A program made the position numbers and the translations under genes. From Cyanidiococcus yangmingshanensis (lineage: Eukaryota; Rhodophyta; Bangiophyceae; Cyanidiales; Cyanidiaceae), in NCBI GenBank assembly GCA_013995675.1, contig VWRR01000002.1:744001-808000 (forward strand): a DNA stretch of 64,000 bases. Reading direction: 5' to 3'. Shown here one piece after another: positions 41,406 to 58,770 of the stretch. The number at the start of each line of letters is the position of its first letter. Positions within the stretch are counted from its first letter, which is position 1. The notes under the pieces are model-generated. The model was not told where the DNA came from, made no database searches, and was given only the letters and a program-made list of their open reading frames with translations.

Positions 41406-42365
41406 CCGTTCAGACACAGAGAGCGTACGCCCTGCTTCGAGCCGTCAACTCGTTAGAGGCGCGTATCGTCGGGATCAGCACATGTCGTCGCGCGCCGCAG
41501 TGGCCCCCTCGACGGTTGACGACGCCCAGGTCGCGTGTGATCGATCCAGCCTCCGTCAGCAATACGGCGGCAGTTCTCGGTCCAACGGTCATCCATTCGG
41601 ATGCTTCGGAGGTAACGAGGCTCATTTTTTTCTTTCTATGGCTGGTGCCGCTGCTCCTCTGAGACGAGCTCGATGACATCGTTTGCTATTGGGATTGCGT
41701 TCCAGTGCAGCAAACGATCCTACACAAATGGCACACAGCGTTCTTCAGCCAGAGGCAATGTTCGCATCCGAGATGCGTTGCGCGACGGGACCTGATTGCC
41801 CTGCGTCCGTAGCGTGCACCAGGCTCGAGCCAGGACCTCGCCTTGTTCTGATTGAATCATGGTTCGTTTTCGTTCGAGGTCTCGGGTCTTCTTTTGGTAT
41901 CTACTGTGTTCATTCGTCAAAGGTCAATGGTCTCATGCAGTATTCAGGTCCGGATACGAGATTGTGTTGTTGCTGCAAACAGGTGGAAGCATCTTTGCAA
42001 AACGAAGTGGAGCATGAAAAAGTTGGTTTCGTCCGACGATAGGAAACGAATGCCTTGATGGAACATATGCAGAAATCAGTGAATATGATCCTCAATCTGA
42101 TACGGGTACATTTTCCAGACGATACATGGCTCGTTCCTGCGTAGAATCGTTTGCATGGATGCATATCGAGTTCGGAGTCCAACGAGCACCGCGCGAGGGT
42201 GTCGGCGGCGCCCGCCGACGCAACGAACAGGGGACGCGTCCGCATTGGTCGCATCGCCGAATCCTATGGGCTGCCTTTGTGGTCGACCACATCTGGGTAG
42301 GTGTGCACGCTGCTAGCGAAACCGATGGCCCTAAGACCGGAACACGTAACGTTTTGAAGACGTTT
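41406..42365. other. Intergenic between divergent genes
   Basis: About 960 bases. An in-frame ATG at 42126 could lengthen the next protein by 80 residues, but that part looks unconserved. Confidence 0.45.
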
Positions 42366-43154
42366 ATGGATTCAAGACGCCTGCGTCGTGACAACTACGC
42401 CCGTGTTGGTGAGGATGAAGAGGCGGGTACTGCACGACCGGGTTCGACGCTGGCACGGCGCGGGCCAGCGAACGCCAGTACTCGCCTCACACCCTTTCGG
42501 TCAGCCCGGGCAGCGATCCAAGTTGTCGCGGTCGGCGTTGTGCTTGTCCTGATCACCACAGGTATGCTGTACGGTGCGCAACGGTACTGGTTGGAGCCCC
42601 GAACCGGAACGTCCTCGGGGCACGCGCTCTCTGCGGCGGACGCGCAGCTCCGAGCGGCGCTGGATGTTAACGCAACTGTTGTTGCTGAGGCGAGACAAGC
42701 GGTGCTCTTCACCCCAAGCGCATGAGTAAGTTGCCCAGAAGAGTGATGACAGAGATAGAAATACCTTATCTACATTGACGGAGATGCGACTGATGCGGGC
42801 ATCTCGATGAGGAATACACTAGACTACTTGACTGACCCTGGGAACAAGAGACTAACCGCGACCGAGACGAGCGATGATTGCCTTGGATATCGAGGTGCAT
42901 CGCTGCTGATGCGACAATAGGCTTTGGGGAGGTATCCCGGAGTGCGCGATTTTACTACCCGAGTTTTCGTGGCGAATACGTGGAGCTTTCAGCGGCCAGT
43001 GCGGCGTGATTTTACCGGTGGCAAACCCTTCCTCACATTCTACGGGGAAGGTGGCGTTGTCCTTCGACATGTCGCCATTGACCTGCTGAGCGCAGAACAG
43101 ATAGCTCTCGTACTAGAGAGACACGGATTTCCAAGGATACCTCCGCAATCGTAG
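42366..43154 (+). CDS. Membrane-anchored selenoprotein of the SELENOF/SELENOM family (spliced)
   Basis: Two exons, 42366-42725 and 42921-43154, give 197 residues if the TGA at 42723-42725 is read as selenocysteine (U). Exon 1 encodes an N-terminal cytosolic stretch, one membrane span (AIQVVAVGVVLVLITTGMLY) and a lumenal linker, ending AVLFTPSA-U. Exon 2 continues in frame with ALGRYPGVRDF, so the junction U-x-L-G-R-Y-P-x-V-x-x-F matches the Sec site of human SELENOF (U-x-L-G-R-F-P-x-V-x-x-F). The rest fits the thioredoxin-like fold, with GKPFLTFYGEGG and LLSAEQIALVLERHGFPR resembling the SELENOM tail. The Cys that precedes Sec in those proteins is missing. A SECIS element follows the TAG stop by 12 bases. 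The role is likely ER redox or folding (inference). An alternative start is the ATG at 42126. Confidence 0.8.
42726..42920 (+). other. Spliceosomal intron of the selenoprotein gene
   Basis: 195 bases, phase 0. The donor is GTAAGT directly after the TGA codon, a branch-point ACTAAC lies at 42851-42856, and the acceptor is CAATAG. Removing it joins the membrane part to the conserved thioredoxin-like part in frame. Confidence 0.75.
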
Positions 43155-43166
43155 CAGCGTTCAAGA

Positions 43167-43238
43167 CGAGCAGTCGTGACCATGAGACAACTTCCGAAAA
43201 GGCGGTCTCGCTCGGGAAGTGGTTGACCCGATTGCTTG
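43167..43238 (+). promoter_or_regulatory. SECIS element, form II
   Basis: It recruits SBP2 and the Sec-specific elongation factor so that UGA is read as selenocysteine. Parts: helix I CGAGCAGTCG (43167-43176) with CGATTGCTTG (43229-43238), ten pairs including G-U; core ATGA at 43182-43185 opposite GA at 43225-43226; helix II GACAACTTCC with GGAAGTGGTT, one A-G mismatch; unpaired AAAA at 43197-43200, eleven bases after ATGA; and a small extra stem GCG-GTCT-CGC closing the tip, which makes it form II. It lies 12 bases after the stop codon. Confidence 0.87.
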
Positions 43239-43944
43239 CCCTTGAGCCAATATCAGGAAAGGGAACGAAAGACTCCTTCAGGTAAGCAGGGATGATTTTT
43301 GGGGCATGTAAAGACTATTGGTCGAGCGTCGCGCTTCGGCTTATGATTCCAGGTTCCAGACTTGTGGTAGAACGACTTTTGAGGGCGAGCATCCGACGCG
43401 CCCACAGCAGTCTCCTCTTTGTCATCGGTGCTGAAGTGCGAAGTGGCGGTGGACTCAGGGAGAGCGCTGCTGCGTAGTGCGCACACAGCTTTGACGGCTG
43501 CCTGGTCCCTGGCGAAGCGAAGCTGTCATTCGTCATCATCTGACCATTCGAAGATCATCGAGAAAGCGCCCTGAAACGTCGATTCGAATGGTCGGCATTT
43601 GCGACTGACCCCAGATCGTGTCGAATATCGCTAGATCGTATTCGATCTGGTTTGTCCTCAACAAGTCAGAGGACATTGCTGCTATGGGCTGCGTATCTTT
43701 CCAGTCGATATTCGCAACAGGTACGTGCCTCCATCGCTCCATGCATCCTGTGATTTCAGGCTTTGGGAGTATAGTGCTCTACCTGAGGCGAGAGGCAGAG
43801 CACCTTCTTGGACCATTCGAGCATTGGATGCCCGTGGACCCAGATATGAGGTTCACTCTGGGTACACAGGGCGCTCTGTCTGCGATTTCGTGGCCACCTG
43901 CCTCGACATTCGCCGCGCGGTGAAGTCGAAGAACGCGTCCGCTC
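43239..43944. other. Intergenic, nothing recognised
   Basis: About 700 bases between the SECIS and the convergent unknown gene. Confidence 0.5.
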
Positions 43945-45561
43945 TCACCTGCCATCACTCGATAGCGAGGTGCACGGAATGCCACCGCCACAGATGTAGT
44001 AGCTGCCGTTCACACAAAGGATGCGACACAAACTTCCTCGATCTAGTGCTGCAGGTTCAAACCTCGCTTGCGTCATCGTTATCGTTTCGTCTCGGTTCTG
44101 GCTACGCGATGCATGCTGCGTGACGCTTCTCGGAGCAAGACCCCACTCTTCCAGCGAGCCCAAAGGATCGATATCCCCAAAATCTGCCTTGGGACCATGA
44201 CCACTTCCATTCAACGACGATGAACTCGTCGGTGTTCGAGAGACTCTCTGCCGCGCGCTAAACGGTGCTGTACCATCCGTGCCGGATTCCACAACCGTCC
44301 CCAATATGGATTCGCGATGTGCTCTCTCGCCACTTCGCTCGGTACTGCCCCTGTTCGGTGAATGGCGAGCGACCTGAGGCGATTGAATGAGACTCGCTTG
44401 GATGCGGTCCCATTCCGCCTGCAGATACGCTTGCGGATCATAGAGCAGGAGTTCGCTCCGGTCAGCGGCTTGCGAATCCAGCGTATCCATGATGGATACA
44501 TTATTTTCGAGACGTTCGTCGTAGACCTCGCGTCCGATTTCCGTGAACTCAGCTTCCAACAACGCATCCAGTACACAGTGGCTCACAAGCGTGTGATCAG
44601 CGATGCCTCGCCACCAAAATGTGGTGGTTTGCGGATACGCCGCAATCGACGCTGCTCCGTAGATCCAACGCATGAGTGCATGCGGAAGCCTCAAAAGAAA
44701 GCATAGATTCCATTTGAGTAAGCCCACTGCAGCCTGAGCTTCGTGGGCATTCGGCTGGAACTGTTCTGCCTCGGTATCGCCTCGATTACGAGGTAGACGA
44801 AGCCGACTCGGAACCAAAGTCGAGCGCAAATCGATGGCACTGTATACCAACGCTTGGGTCTGATCCCCTAAATGTTCCAGCACTGGTTCATGATCCGCAA
44901 CATCAGCTGGCATATGGCCGAGCAGCTGCTCGTCGAGCGCACGAAGAAAACTCCTACATTGGCGATAGAAGCGCAGGATCTGGCGAACCGTGGCGTCATG
45001 TCCCCAACCGTGATGAACAAGACGCCAAATGAAGTAGGACTCTATATGGAGCGTCCCTGAACCATATAGAGCCGAGTTGCGTAGCGCATCCCACGCAGTT
45101 ACGAGAACTGCATCCATCACTGCTGACTCCATGGAAGTTTTCGTTCCTTCAATCCATTCGACGACGGCGTTTACCCACGATAAGGCCATTGCTTTATCAT
45201 AATGAAGACGTGATTCATCTTTTTCACCGTAGATAAACTCCAAAAGAGTTGCCTCTTCGAAGAAAAGGTCCAGTACAGCACGGAGGTCTCGCGTCACCCT
45301 CTCTGTTTCTGGCCTCCCCTCGAGTGACCGAGCACCTCCAAAGCGCCTCTCAGTGCCAGGGATACGTTTTTGGTGGATGATTTCTCGACACAAGTTCAGA
45401 AACTCGCTCTCTGCAGCTAGACCACGGTCACTAAGGAGGCTCGCCCGTGACAGCGGGCGGTGCCAGCGACATGGCTGACGCTTGCGACGTCGTCGACACG
45501 TCTCCGACACGTATCGGATCTCCGCGACTAGACCCGATGGATGGGTCAAACCATCTCTCAT
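43945..45561 (-). CDS. Unknown 538-residue protein
   Basis: A long single frame from the ATG at 45561. The middle (~70-370) looks globular and helical (e.g. VMDAVLVTAWDALRNSALYG, LHIESYFIWRLVHHGWGHDA, TFWWRGIADHTLVSHCVLDA), the region ~390-490 is Ser/Gly/Arg-rich and probably disordered, and the end is Cys-containing (CVNGSYYICGGGIPC). No signal peptide or clear membrane span. I do not recognise a family. The frame length makes it a real gene with fair confidence; function unknown. Confidence 0.65.
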   Translation of the reverse strand: MRDGLTHPSGLVAEIRYVSETCRRRRKRQPCRWHRPLSRASLLSDRGLAAESEFLNLCREIIHQKRIPGTERRFGGARSLEGRPETERVTRDLRAVLDLFFEEATLLEFIYGEKDESRLHYDKAMALSWVNAVVEWIEGTKTSMESAVMDAVLVTAWDALRNSALYGSGTLHIESYFIWRLVHHGWGHDATVRQILRFYRQCRSFLRALDEQLLGHMPADVADHEPVLEHLGDQTQALVYSAIDLRSTLVPSRLRLPRNRGDTEAEQFQPNAHEAQAAVGLLKWNLCFLLRLPHALMRWIYGAASIAAYPQTTTFWWRGIADHTLVSHCVLDALLEAEFTEIGREVYDERLENNVSIMDTLDSQAADRSELLLYDPQAYLQAEWDRIQASLIQSPQVARHSPNRGSTERSGERAHRESILGTVVESGTDGTAPFSARQRVSRTPTSSSSLNGSGHGPKADFGDIDPLGSLEEWGLAPRSVTQHASRSQNRDETITMTQARFEPAALDRGSLCRILCVNGSYYICGGGIPCTSLSSDGR

Positions 45562-54567: not shown

Positions 54568-57500
54568 ATGGCGAAGTTTTCGCAATCTTGGAGTGTTTCT
54601 ACCGGAGCTCCGTACAATATATTCGCAACCCGGCGAGTACTGCGACACGCTGCAGACGTAGCGAACGCACCGTCTATGACTGGGCTCGCTTTCACCAGAC
54701 CAAGCATTGGCCAGCATAGACAGCACTCTGGCCAACTATCACTTACCTCGTCTCGGTATGAGTTTTTGCTGGGCTGCCGCCTCTGCTTGCGAATCTGTCG
54801 TTCTTCTCGATCGAGTCAAACCTTGGTTTTGCAGCGGAGAGGGTTTACGAAATGTTCATCGATCGTGGAGCCAGCCAGGTACAGCGGCTCGGCGTCACTC
54901 TCAATGAGGATGCCGAGAGCGTCTCCAAGCATGGCCGTGACTACAACGACGCCCTCAACAGTTCGCAGAGCGTTGCTGCCCTGCACCCGTTACGTTGTCT
55001 TCTCGGACTTGCACGTTGAGTTGAATCGGCTGGACACCTGCCTCCAAGTGCTCGAGCATGTTCACCAGGTGGCGTGTGCGAACGGTGCTGGCATTGTCTT
55101 TCTCGGCGATTTCTGGCATGTCCGTGGAAGCATTCCGGTGATCTGTCTCAATCGAGTGCTTGAGGCTGTCCAACGATTCACGCGCCCAGTCCTCATGATA
55201 CCAGGGAACCATGATCAAGTGACCATATGTGGGCGAGAGCACGCTCTAGTGCCGGTAGCGGCAGCCATGCCGCCTGGTCTCGCCCATGTGATCGAGCAGC
55301 CCACTGTGCTCTTCGATGCACTTTGGCTGCCGTATCGAAAACGAAATGAGGAGCTGATCGAAGCACTGCGAGCACACGGGCCTCATGTCAAGGCAGTCTT
55401 TTGTCATGCCGAGATCCGGGGTGCCTGGATGAATAATCATCTTCGTTATGATGGACACAGCGGGCTCGAGCCAGAACTCTTCCCTTTGGCACCTGTGCCA
55501 ACCTATTCAGGTCACTTCCATCGACCGCATCTGGTGCCCGGATATCCACAGATTCGCTACGTGGGCTCGCCGTATCAGGTAACACGTTCCGAGGAGGGCC
55601 AGCAGAAACAACTTCTTATTCTGCGATCATCAGACTGGCGAGTCGAACGTGAACTTCCCTTGGATCTGGGACCGCGTTTCTTCAGTGTTTCGCTGGCTCA
55701 GGCTCGGCAACGATTGCGACGTGCAGGCAAGAGTCCCGCCGATGACAAGCAGCCTGAGCTCAATCCTTGGCGAGCCGGTGATCGGGTGACGCTTCTGTGT
55801 TCCTCGTTGCAGACGTTGCGAGCTGCACAAAGCTCTCATGATGCCAAACGTGAACTGGAGCTCATTTACCGAGAACTGCGACGTCAAGGCATTCAGGCTA
55901 GCATGCGAATATGGGACGCGGAAACGACGTGTTCAGAAGGGCTCGAGAACCCCACCTCGACAACCTTTGTAGGGCATCGAGTCCGTTTGCCGGATGCAGA
56001 GCGACTTGACCCATCAGATATCCTGCGACTTTACGCTCGAAAATACCCTCAAGAGGTGGATCCGCAAGCGCTGGAGCTTGGATTGCAAATCCTTGAACAG
56101 GTCCGTACGATGAAAACCACCTCGCGATCTGCAGATCAAAGCCGGAGCCAACGTAGTGTACGACTCGTCTTTGAATCGGTTCGCATGCATAATTTCGGGT
56201 GCTTCCTCACAGCGCCCTTAGAATCAGGTACCAAGGAGGTCATTCCCGAGACGACTCTGGGAGCGAATCGAAGCGCACCAACATTTGCGCCAAACAATCC
56301 ACAGTCTAACGGCGCCGCTACGGACGGTGTCGTTGTTGCCATCGAGGAGGATCGTTTCACCTCTGGAAAGACTTTATCCAGGCAAGAAGAACAGGAAAAA
56401 GTCGGATTTTGGTATCCGTTGCATCGTCGTGGCATTGTCCTAGTCTCTGGCCGCAATATGGATGAAGATGGATGCAACTCGAACGGAACTGGCAAAACAA
56501 CATTGGCGATGGCGGCGCTCTGGGCGCTGACCGGATGCCTCGAACCGAGACAGCATTTGCGGCGCAACGTCTCGCAACTCCGAATCCTTCATGAAGACGC
56601 TACCGATGGCTTTGTGGAACTTCGAGCTCGAGTGAACGATAAACCGCTGCTGGTGCGCCGAAGAGTACGCCGCAGTGGCAAACAGAGAGAGCGTCTCAGT
56701 CAGGAACTGTTCGTGGAGTACGATTCGGTGAATTTGTCCGGACTCAGCATTGATGACACGCAACAGCGCCTAGATCGACTTCTGGACCCATCGTTGCTTC
56801 ATCATGCGGTTTTCTTTGGCCAGAGCCTCATGAATGATCTTCTATCGGCGACTGACAAAGAGTTCAAGGAGATTCTCGACATCGCCCTCCCACTTCAGGT
56901 GTGGAATGAAGCATACGCCCAGGTGACGGCGCAGCAGCGGGCTATTGGAGACGAGCGAGAACAACTCCGACGGCAGATGCAAGGCTGGCAACAGGAGATC
57001 GAACGCGAGCAAGAGCGTATCAAGCAGTTTCAGCAAACCGAACAGGATACCCTAATGGAGCTCGACCAGCAAGAACGAGAACTCAAGGGTTGGTTGCAGC
57101 GAAACCGAGGTTCCGAGACAGTGGCCGCGTCAAGCCCTGACGACATCTCCGACCAGGGTTGCTTTGCGGCACTAGAGGATGCTGTGCGAGAATTGAATGC
57201 TAAAGTTGCAGAGGGCACGGCTGTTCTAGCGAACCTGCAGCAGCGAGAGGCTAGCTTGCGCGCCGAGCTCGCACAAGCGCGAAAACTCTGGGATCAGTGG
57301 GCCGAGCTCGACCAGATGACGGTCAGTGCCTCGGGACGCGAACATCGTCTTGCGCTTCAAGAGACCAGCGAAGCGCTTAAAACAAAGCTCAGTACGCTCG
57401 AACGGAAACTCCAGGAGTTGAGGCTCGACGAGGAACGAATCAGCGCCAACGTGAGTCACCTGGACCGCTTGCTTCGCTTTCGTTACTCGAATGATGATAA

Positions 57501-58770
57501 CGCGAATGAAGATATGGATGGCGGGACCACGGAACAGCGAGCAGACTCGGAGACAACGCTTTGTGCACTCTGTCTGCAGTCCGTGAACGCCGTCTCCTAT
57601 GAGGCACGCCTGGAGACACTGCGGGATGAGCGCCAAGCCCTCTGCGAGAAACTCTTTTCCATCACGGAGCAGCGGCACGAAATTGAAACGGAGACAGTTT
57701 CGACGAAGAGAGCACTAGAAGAAACGAATACAGATCTGGCTCAGCGGCAGACATTGGAGCAGCGGCTCGAGGCGGTCTCTCAAGTCCGACCATCAACCGA
57801 GCACATGAAGGAGCTCACGCTTGCCTGGAATCGATGCGAAGCAGACTATAAGGCATTGACGCGGGAACTCCAGGGAAAGCGACAGGCGCTCCAAGACTAT
57901 GCGCGCCGTCTGCAACATCAGCAGCAACTAGCAATGCAACGACGACAATGCAAAGACGACCAAAGTCGAATTCTCCAGCAGCTTGAGTGGATCCGTCAGC
58001 AGCGTCAACGCGTCATCGAGCCGCTCGTCACCGCTATTCGACAAGCCAACGAACGCCTCGCGAGTCTGAGGCGCGCGATAGAACAGGCACGCACTCGCAA
58101 TGAAGCGCTGGAACATGAATGTACACGTTTGCAGCGTCTCGAGCGGGTATTTCATCGAGGTGGAATCCCGAGTTACCTGCTTGATCAGAGCCTCCAGGTA
58201 ATCGAGACGCTCTGTCGACAGTATCTGCAACACTTGAGCGACGATACACTGCTTCTGCGCATTCGACGACGACGCGTTCAAAAGACAAGTCGCAGCCGTC
58301 AGAACACGACCGAGGCACTACTTACCACGCCAGCACTGGAGGTAATTGTTTGGCAAGTCTACTGTCGAGATAGCAAGACAGGCGCGTTTCGCGAACGAGA
58401 GCTCGGTCTTTTGAGTGGAGGTCAGTTCCGTCGAGTCAGTTTAGCGTTATCGCTCGCATTCGCAGAATACCTCTGTCATCAAATTGGGTATTCGAGTAAC
58501 TTACTCGTCCTGGATGAGATTTTGCAACAGCTCGACCAGGAGGGCGCTCGACGACTCGCAACCCTGTTGCCGCTTCTAGAGCGAGACACTGTGCTGGTTA
58601 TCGCTCACGAGAATGTTCGTTACTTGGCGGATGTTGCTGATGCGCACGATGTTGTCGAGCGTTCTGCCGGACAAAGCACGGTCTTGTGTGATCTACCGCA
58701 ACTAGATGAACCGCTCCATGGAGACTCATGGCCTCTGGACATGGCCAGCTCCACGGAGACGTTTTCCTAA
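54568..58770 (+). CDS. Single-chain SbcD-SbcC (Mre11-Rad50-like) nuclease-ATPase fusion
   Basis: A 1400-residue protein from the ATG at 54568. Residues 1-~135 are Ser/Arg-rich with few acids, like an organelle targeting leader. Residues ~140-350 are an Mre11/SbcD-type metallophosphoesterase: SDLH (146), GDFWH (180), GNHD (213), CHAE (279), GHFH (315). Residues ~530-1400 are an SbcC/Rad50-type SMC ATPase: Walker A SNGTGKTT (~638), two coiled-coil arms (~775-995 and ~1010-1215), a zinc hook CALC (999-1002), ABC signature LSGGQ (1282), Walker B LLVLDE (1312), and the H-loop IAHE. The order SbcD then SbcC in one chain is unusual; bacteria and T4 phage use two proteins, and eukaryotic MRE11 and RAD50 are separate. 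The catalytic set looks intact. It probably processes DNA ends or hairpins in plastid or mitochondrion (inference). Confidence 0.88.
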   Translation: MAKFSQSWSVSTGAPYNIFATRRVLRHAADVANAPSMTGLAFTRPSIGQHRQHSGQLSLTSSRYEFLLGCRLCLRICRSSRSSQTLVLQRRGFTKCSSIVEPARYSGSASLSMRMPRASPSMAVTTTTPSTVRRALLPCTRYVVFSDLHVELNRLDTCLQVLEHVHQVACANGAGIVFLGDFWHVRGSIPVICLNRVLEAVQRFTRPVLMIPGNHDQVTICGREHALVPVAAAMPPGLAHVIEQPTVLFDALWLPYRKRNEELIEALRAHGPHVKAVFCHAEIRGAWMNNHLRYDGHSGLEPELFPLAPVPTYSGHFHRPHLVPGYPQIRYVGSPYQVTRSEEGQQKQLLILRSSDWRVERELPLDLGPRFFSVSLAQARQRLRRAGKSPADDKQPELNPWRAGDRVTLLCSSLQTLRAAQSSHDAKRELELIYRELRRQGIQASMRIWDAETTCSEGLENPTSTTFVGHRVRLPDAERLDPSDILRLYARKYPQEVDPQALELGLQILEQVRTMKTTSRSADQSRSQRSVRLVFESVRMHNFGCFLTAPLESGTKEVIPETTLGANRSAPTFAPNNPQSNGAATDGVVVAIEEDRFTSGKTLSRQEEQEKVGFWYPLHRRGIVLVSGRNMDEDGCNSNGTGKTTLAMAALWALTGCLEPRQHLRRNVSQLRILHEDATDGFVELRARVNDKPLLVRRRVRRSGKQRERLSQELFVEYDSVNLSGLSIDDTQQRLDRLLDPSLLHHAVFFGQSLMNDLLSATDKEFKEILDIALPLQVWNEAYAQVTAQQRAIGDEREQLRRQMQGWQQEIEREQERIKQFQQTEQDTLMELDQQERELKGWLQRNRGSETVAASSPDDISDQGCFAALEDAVRELNAKVAEGTAVLANLQQREASLRAELAQARKLWDQWAELDQMTVSASGREHRLALQETSEALKTKLSTLERKLQELRLDEERISANVSHLDRLLRFRYSNDDNANEDMDGGTTEQRADSETTLCALCLQSVNAVSYEARLETLRDERQALCEKLFSITEQRHEIETETVSTKRALEETNTDLAQRQTLEQRLEAVSQVRPSTEHMKELTLAWNRCEADYKALTRELQGKRQALQDYARRLQHQQQLAMQRRQCKDDQSRILQQLEWIRQQRQRVIEPLVTAIRQANERLASLRRAIEQARTRNEALEHECTRLQRLERVFHRGGIPSYLLDQSLQVIETLCRQYLQHLSDDTLLLRIRRRRVQKTSRSRQNTTEALLTTPALEVIVWQVYCRDSKTGAFRERELGLLSGGQFRRVSLALSLAFAEYLCHQIGYSSNLLVLDEILQQLDQEGARRLATLLPLLERDTVLVIAHENVRYLADVADAHDVVERSAGQSTVLCDLPQLDEPLHGDSWPLDMASSTETFS

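Follow-up and report, generated by a model that had tools for sequence, protein, structure and literature searches.

The question raised by this locus was whether the TGA at positions 42723 to 42725 of the window (the whole 64-kb stretch of DNA that was analyzed, from the hot-spring red alga Cyanidiococcus yangmingshanensis) ends a short gene or is read as selenocysteine (Sec) in a longer, spliced one. In Cyanidioschyzon merolae the Sec tRNA, SBP2, EFSec, SecS, and SPS2 were reported to be present together with 0 selenoproteins, which the available text of Lobanov et al. (2007; PMC2375036) leaves as a puzzle, with the suggestion that C. merolae has a lineage-specific selenoprotein or an unusual SECIS. 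As far as the available text of each goes, a 2020 algal survey (Jiang 2020; PMC7539508) still recorded no selenoprotein in C. merolae, and a 2019 survey (PMC6627142) considered that the species might represent an intermediate step in the loss of Sec use and reported PSTK as missing from it, one later passage being ambiguous on that point. The gene described here is a candidate client for this "orphan" Sec machinery of Cyanidioschyzon. No paper describing it was found in the literature searched, which lay mostly outside the subscription journals and consisted of articles without their supplementary files. If the gene is real, a selenoprotein in the sister genus of C. merolae would give the Sec machinery a reason to exist. 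Pipelines could miss such a gene because its UGA ends an exon, its homology is weak, and its SECIS is below cut-off.

The predicted gene is on the plus strand and has two exons. Exon 1 (42366 to 42725) starts with an ATG, whose Met lines up with the start of the relative P0004 (see below), and encodes an Arg-rich N-terminus, one hydrophobic segment, and a linker; its terminus is CCAAGCGCA followed by TGA, the last codon before the donor, with GTAAGT directly after. The predicted phase-0 spliceosomal intron of 195 nt (42726 to 42920) has its GTAAGT donor from 42726, the branch site ACTAAC at 42851 to 42856, and the acceptor AG at 42919 to 42920. The frame that runs through the UGA stays open in exon 2 (42921 to 43154), with coding sequence from 42921 to 43151 and a TAG at 43152 to 43154, and translation across the predicted junction gives FTPSA-U-ALGRYPGVRDF. 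The earlier note had named the TGA, donor, ACTAAC, acceptor, intron length and phase, and onward frame, and all of them were found at the coordinates it gave; its description of the stop codon as lying one base before the exon junction needs correction, as the TGA actually abuts the junction (0 nt).

The available text of PMC8831791 gives GUAAGU as the donor motif in C. merolae. When the window was scanned for splice pairs with GTAAGT donors only, 10 such sites were found (3 on the plus and 7 on the minus strand), and the one at this locus was the only one with an ACTAAC 30 to 500 nt downstream. Codon usage gave +19.7 bits for exon 1 and +6.3 bits for exon 2, for which the remaining sense frames scored −2.4 and +2.6 and the antisense frames +1.6, −9.7, and +4.1. 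Because frame 0 of the intron reached +6.1 bits, nearly equal to exon 2, codon usage alone lacks the power to prove exon 2.

The predicted spliced product has 197 residues and carries sequons at Asn36 and Asn102. Its hydrophobic segment spans residues 50 to 68 or so and has 11 K/R and 6 D/E residues on its N-terminal side. This one hydrophobic segment near the N-terminus agrees with an N-terminal anchor as proposed in the earlier note. The product has 0 Cys residues, so that the residue encoded by the UGA, number 120, is its sole Cys/Sec, and the absence of a resolving Cys before the Sec was thus borne out for the protein as a whole. An AlphaFold model of exon 2 alone, made from the single sequence, had a pLDDT of 68 and no fold match at E ≤ 0.001; a PDB sequence search with the spliced protein returned one unrelated match (E 0.97).

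Similarity to a known family came from the domain downstream of the UGA. A search of 24,736 Pfam models with the spliced protein returned Sep15_SelM (PF08806) as the sole family, covering positions 7 to 75 of the 75 in the profile at E 0.01 and 16.3 bits, which falls short of the curated cut-off of 26 bits; rescaled to one family named beforehand, the E value is about 4e-7. Exon 2 alone matched the same family at E 0.027. A search of the whole genome with the PF08806 profile gave zero matches and, because it missed even this locus, has nothing to say about Sep15/SelM paralogues.

Local alignments were made against human SELENOM and SELENOF sequences that carried C in place of U, which biases toward the versions containing the junction: Against SELENOM the junction plus exon 2 scored 53, equalled by 0 of 2000 shuffles, and exon 2 alone 43 (5 of 2000); against SELENOF the corresponding scores were 40 (2 of 2000) and 32 (52 of 2000). 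The SELENOM alignment runs from TPSAU/TCGGU through GFPR/GFYR and places the UGA on the Sec column, and the SELENOF alignment covers CxLGRYPxVxxF only. After the predicted splicing, the UGA is thus followed by a frame that continues into a conserved domain, as in a selenoprotein gene, with a domain similarity that is weak.

Both selenoproteins differ from the predicted algal protein on the N-terminal side of the Sec. SELENOM carries CGGU and a cleaved signal peptide; the algal protein shares with it the Sec followed by x-L-x-R, a redox domain alignable as a whole to the GF-x-R end, and the Sep15_SelM match, but has TPSAU, no Cys, and an N-terminal hydrophobic segment resembling an anchor. SELENOF carries CGU and a Cys-rich N-terminal domain; the algal protein shares LGR[YF]P-x-V-x-x-F immediately after the Sec but, having no Cys, lacks both. 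The earlier note had recognized the Sec site of SELENOF here, and this holds for the motif right after the U; in the shuffle-tested alignments, the full-length similarity is to SELENOM instead. We call the predicted protein Sep15/SelM-like without assigning it to either SELENOF or SELENOM, since TPSAU stands in place of the CxU/CxxU redox motif and the Pfam score lies under the cut-off. An altered motif is not unprecedented, since algal non-Sec homologues with CMR or DQW replacing CxU are described in the available text of PMC7539508.

Relatives of exon 1 bear on whether the TGA is conserved. The protein collection contained three metagenomic homologues, P0003, P0004, and P0005, which represent two distinct sequences, P0004 and P0005 being identical across their overlap; a profile built from the four exon-1 sequences retrieved these three again, and no others, among the 8000 best candidates scored. 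Identity to exon 1 of the window over the aligned part was 90% for P0003, 60% for P0004, and 61% for P0005. The exon-1 end, ...RQAVLFTPSA, is common to all three. The gene calls of P0003 and P0004 stop after FTPSA, and P0005 reads on as ...FTPSA-W-V-S-T-P, evidently having been translated with TGA as W. Because P0004 stops where P0005 has W, the codon after FTPSA in P0005 would most simply be TGA, with GTN as the next codon and AGY or TCN after it. A TGA directly before a GT donor thus appears to be conserved at about 60% identity, as judged from P0004 and P0005, the stop codon itself not being visible for P0003. No relatives of exon 1 were found in viral contigs or genome contigs. For exon 2 there were none in viral contigs, and the protein collection returned only the protein of the window itself; exon 2 and the SECIS could not be recovered from any relative.

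The conservation beyond the TGA in P0005 led into the intron. Aligned with the window intron, the back-translated P0005 tail matched its initial 125 nt or so at a score of 83.6; 200 shuffles averaged 11.4 and did not exceed 28.1. The conservation is not that of coding sequence, because seven of the eight gaps have lengths that three does not divide and stops interrupt the frame of the window copy (TGA TGA ... TAG). The intron contains a box C/D snoRNA-like element on the plus strand (42734 to 42842), closed by a stem of CCCAG (42734 to 42738) and CTGGG (42838 to 42842), with boxes C (GTGATGA, 42743 to 42749), D' (CTGA, 42790 to 42793), C' (TCGATGA, 42804 to 42810), and D (CTGA, 42832 to 42835). 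Boxes C and D, the terminal stem, and internal C'/D' boxes are therefore all present. A pattern scan whose criteria were chosen after the element had been noticed found it as the only instance on the plus strand of the window, with 0 on the minus strand and 0 in 60 shuffles. An Rfam search of 42000 to 45000 up to E 10 gave no match to a snoRNA family, its single match being to a non-snoRNA. Two pattern searches for the rRNA of this genome, as a guide target, were negative.

From these features the intron appears to hold a conserved box C/D snoRNA, which the earlier note had overlooked. Its boxes C, D', C', and D and its terminal stem within an intron are shared with other intron-hosted box C/D snoRNAs; the difference is in the host, which here is a selenoprotein-like gene. 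About 35 introns are given for a genome of this kind in the available text of PMC13353863, and no description of an intronic snoRNA in C. merolae was noticed in literature listings or in the available text of PMC6461891.

A candidate SECIS was found on the plus strand at 43174 to 43239, in which the AUGA is at 43182 to 43185, the apical AA starts at 43197, the UGA is at 43224 to 43226, and an extra apical hairpin makes the structure form-2-like. It sits 28 nt past the stop and is absent from the earlier note. The core was first picked by eye, and a search of 116 nt with Rfam SECIS_1 then recovered the same element over model positions 1 to 64 of 64; its score of 15.5 bits lies below the gathering cut-off of 35 bits, with E 1.2 over 4227 families and about 3e-4 if this single family is asked for. 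No SECIS was listed in the Rfam search of 42000 to 45000 or in the SECIS_1 search across the whole genome. Free folding of 43160 to 43260 gave z −1.6, with 14 of 200 shuffles folding at least equally well, so that the region is weakly stable for its composition. Two strict SECIS scans picked out 4 and 8 sites elsewhere in the window, counts that resemble those of shuffles (0–3 and 0–6 per strand), and passed over the candidate on account of its helix II, which forms just 6 pairs. With thresholds set afterwards to the candidate's own values, once the constrained fold had been viewed, shuffled sequence totalling 6.4 Mb yielded 11 structures, or about 0.0017 per kb, and the same values selected 1 of 24 core matches on the plus strand of the window, the candidate itself, and 1 of 17 on the minus strand. 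We regard the SECIS-like hairpin just past the stop as a candidate, not proof.

The check proposed in the earlier note, a genome search for SBP2, EFSec, SecS, SPS2, and tRNA-Sec, found most of this machinery. The tRNA-Sec gene scored 59.5 bits and was assigned the anticodon tca by ARAGORN. SepSecS scored 391 bits and lies on C1 within a single open frame; a near-copy on C15 shifts frame near the C-terminus. The duplicated segment is 98.7% identical across 4,049 aligned columns, and over a run of 1,529 matched bases the copies of SepSecS differ by four gaps of one base each and by 0 substitutions. The SPS has the motif GCGCK and is therefore of the Cys type. An SBP2-like L7Ae protein on C5 matched L7Ae weakly (19.2 bits against a cut-off of 22.1), and its sole PDB sequence match at E ≤ 0.1 was SECIS binding protein 2 (E 0.0018). 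EFSec, located through weak selB matches, is on C14 (L026 1217–3462) and is recognizable from the GTPase to the C-terminal domain, across three reading frames in the assembly. For the GTPase piece the best PDB match was eEFSec (E 8e-42), and the domain-2 piece gave 1.8e-5; the C-terminal piece matched eEFSec_4th at E 2.7e-5 (24.7 bits against a cut-off of 27) and had no PDB match up to E 1. The PF21208 profile matched nowhere in the genome. A GTPase adjoining the window (C12:742 kb) was considered as EFSec and rejected as eIF2-gamma.

A search of the genome for PSTK did not identify it. Two matches were rejected: a clear KTI12-family match on C10, whose best PDB match was 6qp0, a "putative chromatin binding protein" that we take to be KTI12, and a weak match on C3, which is an AAA_18-type kinase. 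The tRNA-Sec, SBP2, EFSec, SecS, and SPS2 set is shared with C. merolae, with EFSec here in broken frames; the difference is that no selenoprotein was found there, and a candidate client is present here in a close relative.

We consider it likely, from the sequence features described above, that the locus encodes a 197-residue, membrane-anchored, Sep15/SelM-like selenoprotein. The reading of the TGA as Sec, advanced in the earlier note, gains support from its position on the Sec column of the SELENOM alignment, the SECIS candidate, and the presence of most of the Sec machinery. These same features argue against an ordinary stop, by which the gene would encode a 119-residue membrane protein, the intron would lie in the 3' UTR and be kept for its snoRNA, and the likeness of exon 2 would be due to chance. 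The gene calls of P0003 and P0004 do end at the position of the TGA, and the intron has a conserved stretch of its own; moreover, the Sep15_SelM score is under its cut-off, the match of exon 2 alone to SELENOF was equalled by 52 of 2000 shuffles, and the codon signal of exon 2 is slight, intron frame 0 giving one just as large. An ordinary stop is nevertheless unlikely, given that exon 2 is open in the exact frame continuing from the UGA and yields the sole Pfam match, that the SELENOM similarity extends through the UGA column, and that a SECIS-like hairpin follows in a genome with Sec machinery.

It is also conceivable that this is a former selenoprotein gene, in which Sec decoding has decayed in the strain, the UGA now terminates translation, and exon 2 is a relic. 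EFSec spread over three frames and a PSTK that was not found would fit such decay, as would the report, in the available text of PMC6627142, of C. merolae as lacking PSTK and possibly at an intermediate stage of loss. The frame changes in EFSec may be real decay, and this is the main threat to the gene working in this strain. They may also be assembly indels, because the KTI12-family gene on C10 (L029 1486–2725) is also split over two frames, where an intron is possible, and the SepSecS copies differ by single-base gaps without substitutions; both resemble residual assembly indels. With the EFSec domains up to eEFSec_4th still recognizable and exon 2 still open, we consider the relic very unlikely. 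That the UGA is skipped through alternative splicing, or is read through as a standard amino acid, seems extremely improbable: Intron retention is common in C. merolae (available text of PMC8831791), which makes other RNA forms possible, but no second GTAAGT–ACTAAC pair was found in the window, in a scan confined to GTAAGT donors, and the UGA falls exactly on the Sec column in a genome with a tRNA-Sec gene.

If the locus is a spliced selenoprotein gene, splicing would join the UGA to exon 2, and SBP2 bound to the SECIS would recruit EFSec and tRNA-Sec, so that the UGA would be decoded. Anchored by its N-terminal hydrophobic segment, the protein would have its thioredoxin-like domain in the lumen of the ER. 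With no internal Cys available, the Sec would act with an external thiol, as a one-residue redox center that would form mixed selenylsulfides, either with glutathione or with a partner protein. A message left unspliced would be translated as far as the UGA or, if Sec were inserted, for six codons more (to the end of VSCPEE). Unspliced RNA would thus give the anchor only, with or without VSCPEE, and therefore splicing would decide whether the redox domain is produced; the same splicing event would release the box C/D snoRNA.

The earlier note had suggested that nonsense-mediated decay (NMD) and Sec insertion might compete at this UGA. According to the available text of PMC7602710, a premature stop is generally recognized when it precedes a junction by 55 nt or more, and the UGA of GPx1 is at 105 nt. 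We do not favor NMD competition as the leading idea, because the distance between UGA and junction here is 0 nt against the at least 55 nt required. Under the mammalian junction rule this UGA would escape; that rule may not be the one the alga follows.

More speculatively, the gene might be the last client keeping the whole Cyanidiales Sec machinery alive, and a single transcript would couple Sec decoding to splicing and to the making of the snoRNA. The location of the Sec codon at the donor would then be fixed, restricting its use to spliced RNA beyond the reach of junction-dependent NMD, and the intron would be kept by an essential snoRNA; we hold this larger proposal to be possible but doubtful. 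If the protein is real, it would be a Sec protein without any Cys in a genetically tractable algal group and hence directly testable.

Two other open reading frames in the window were also inspected. One, of 538 residues (43945 to 45561, minus strand), is convergent with the predicted selenoprotein gene and had no Pfam match at E ≤ 0.001. The other, of 1400 residues (54568 to 58767, plus strand), for which the SMC_N and SbcC_Walker_B scores are under their cut-offs, has calcineurin-like phosphoesterase and RAD50/SbcC-like ATPase matches in one chain.
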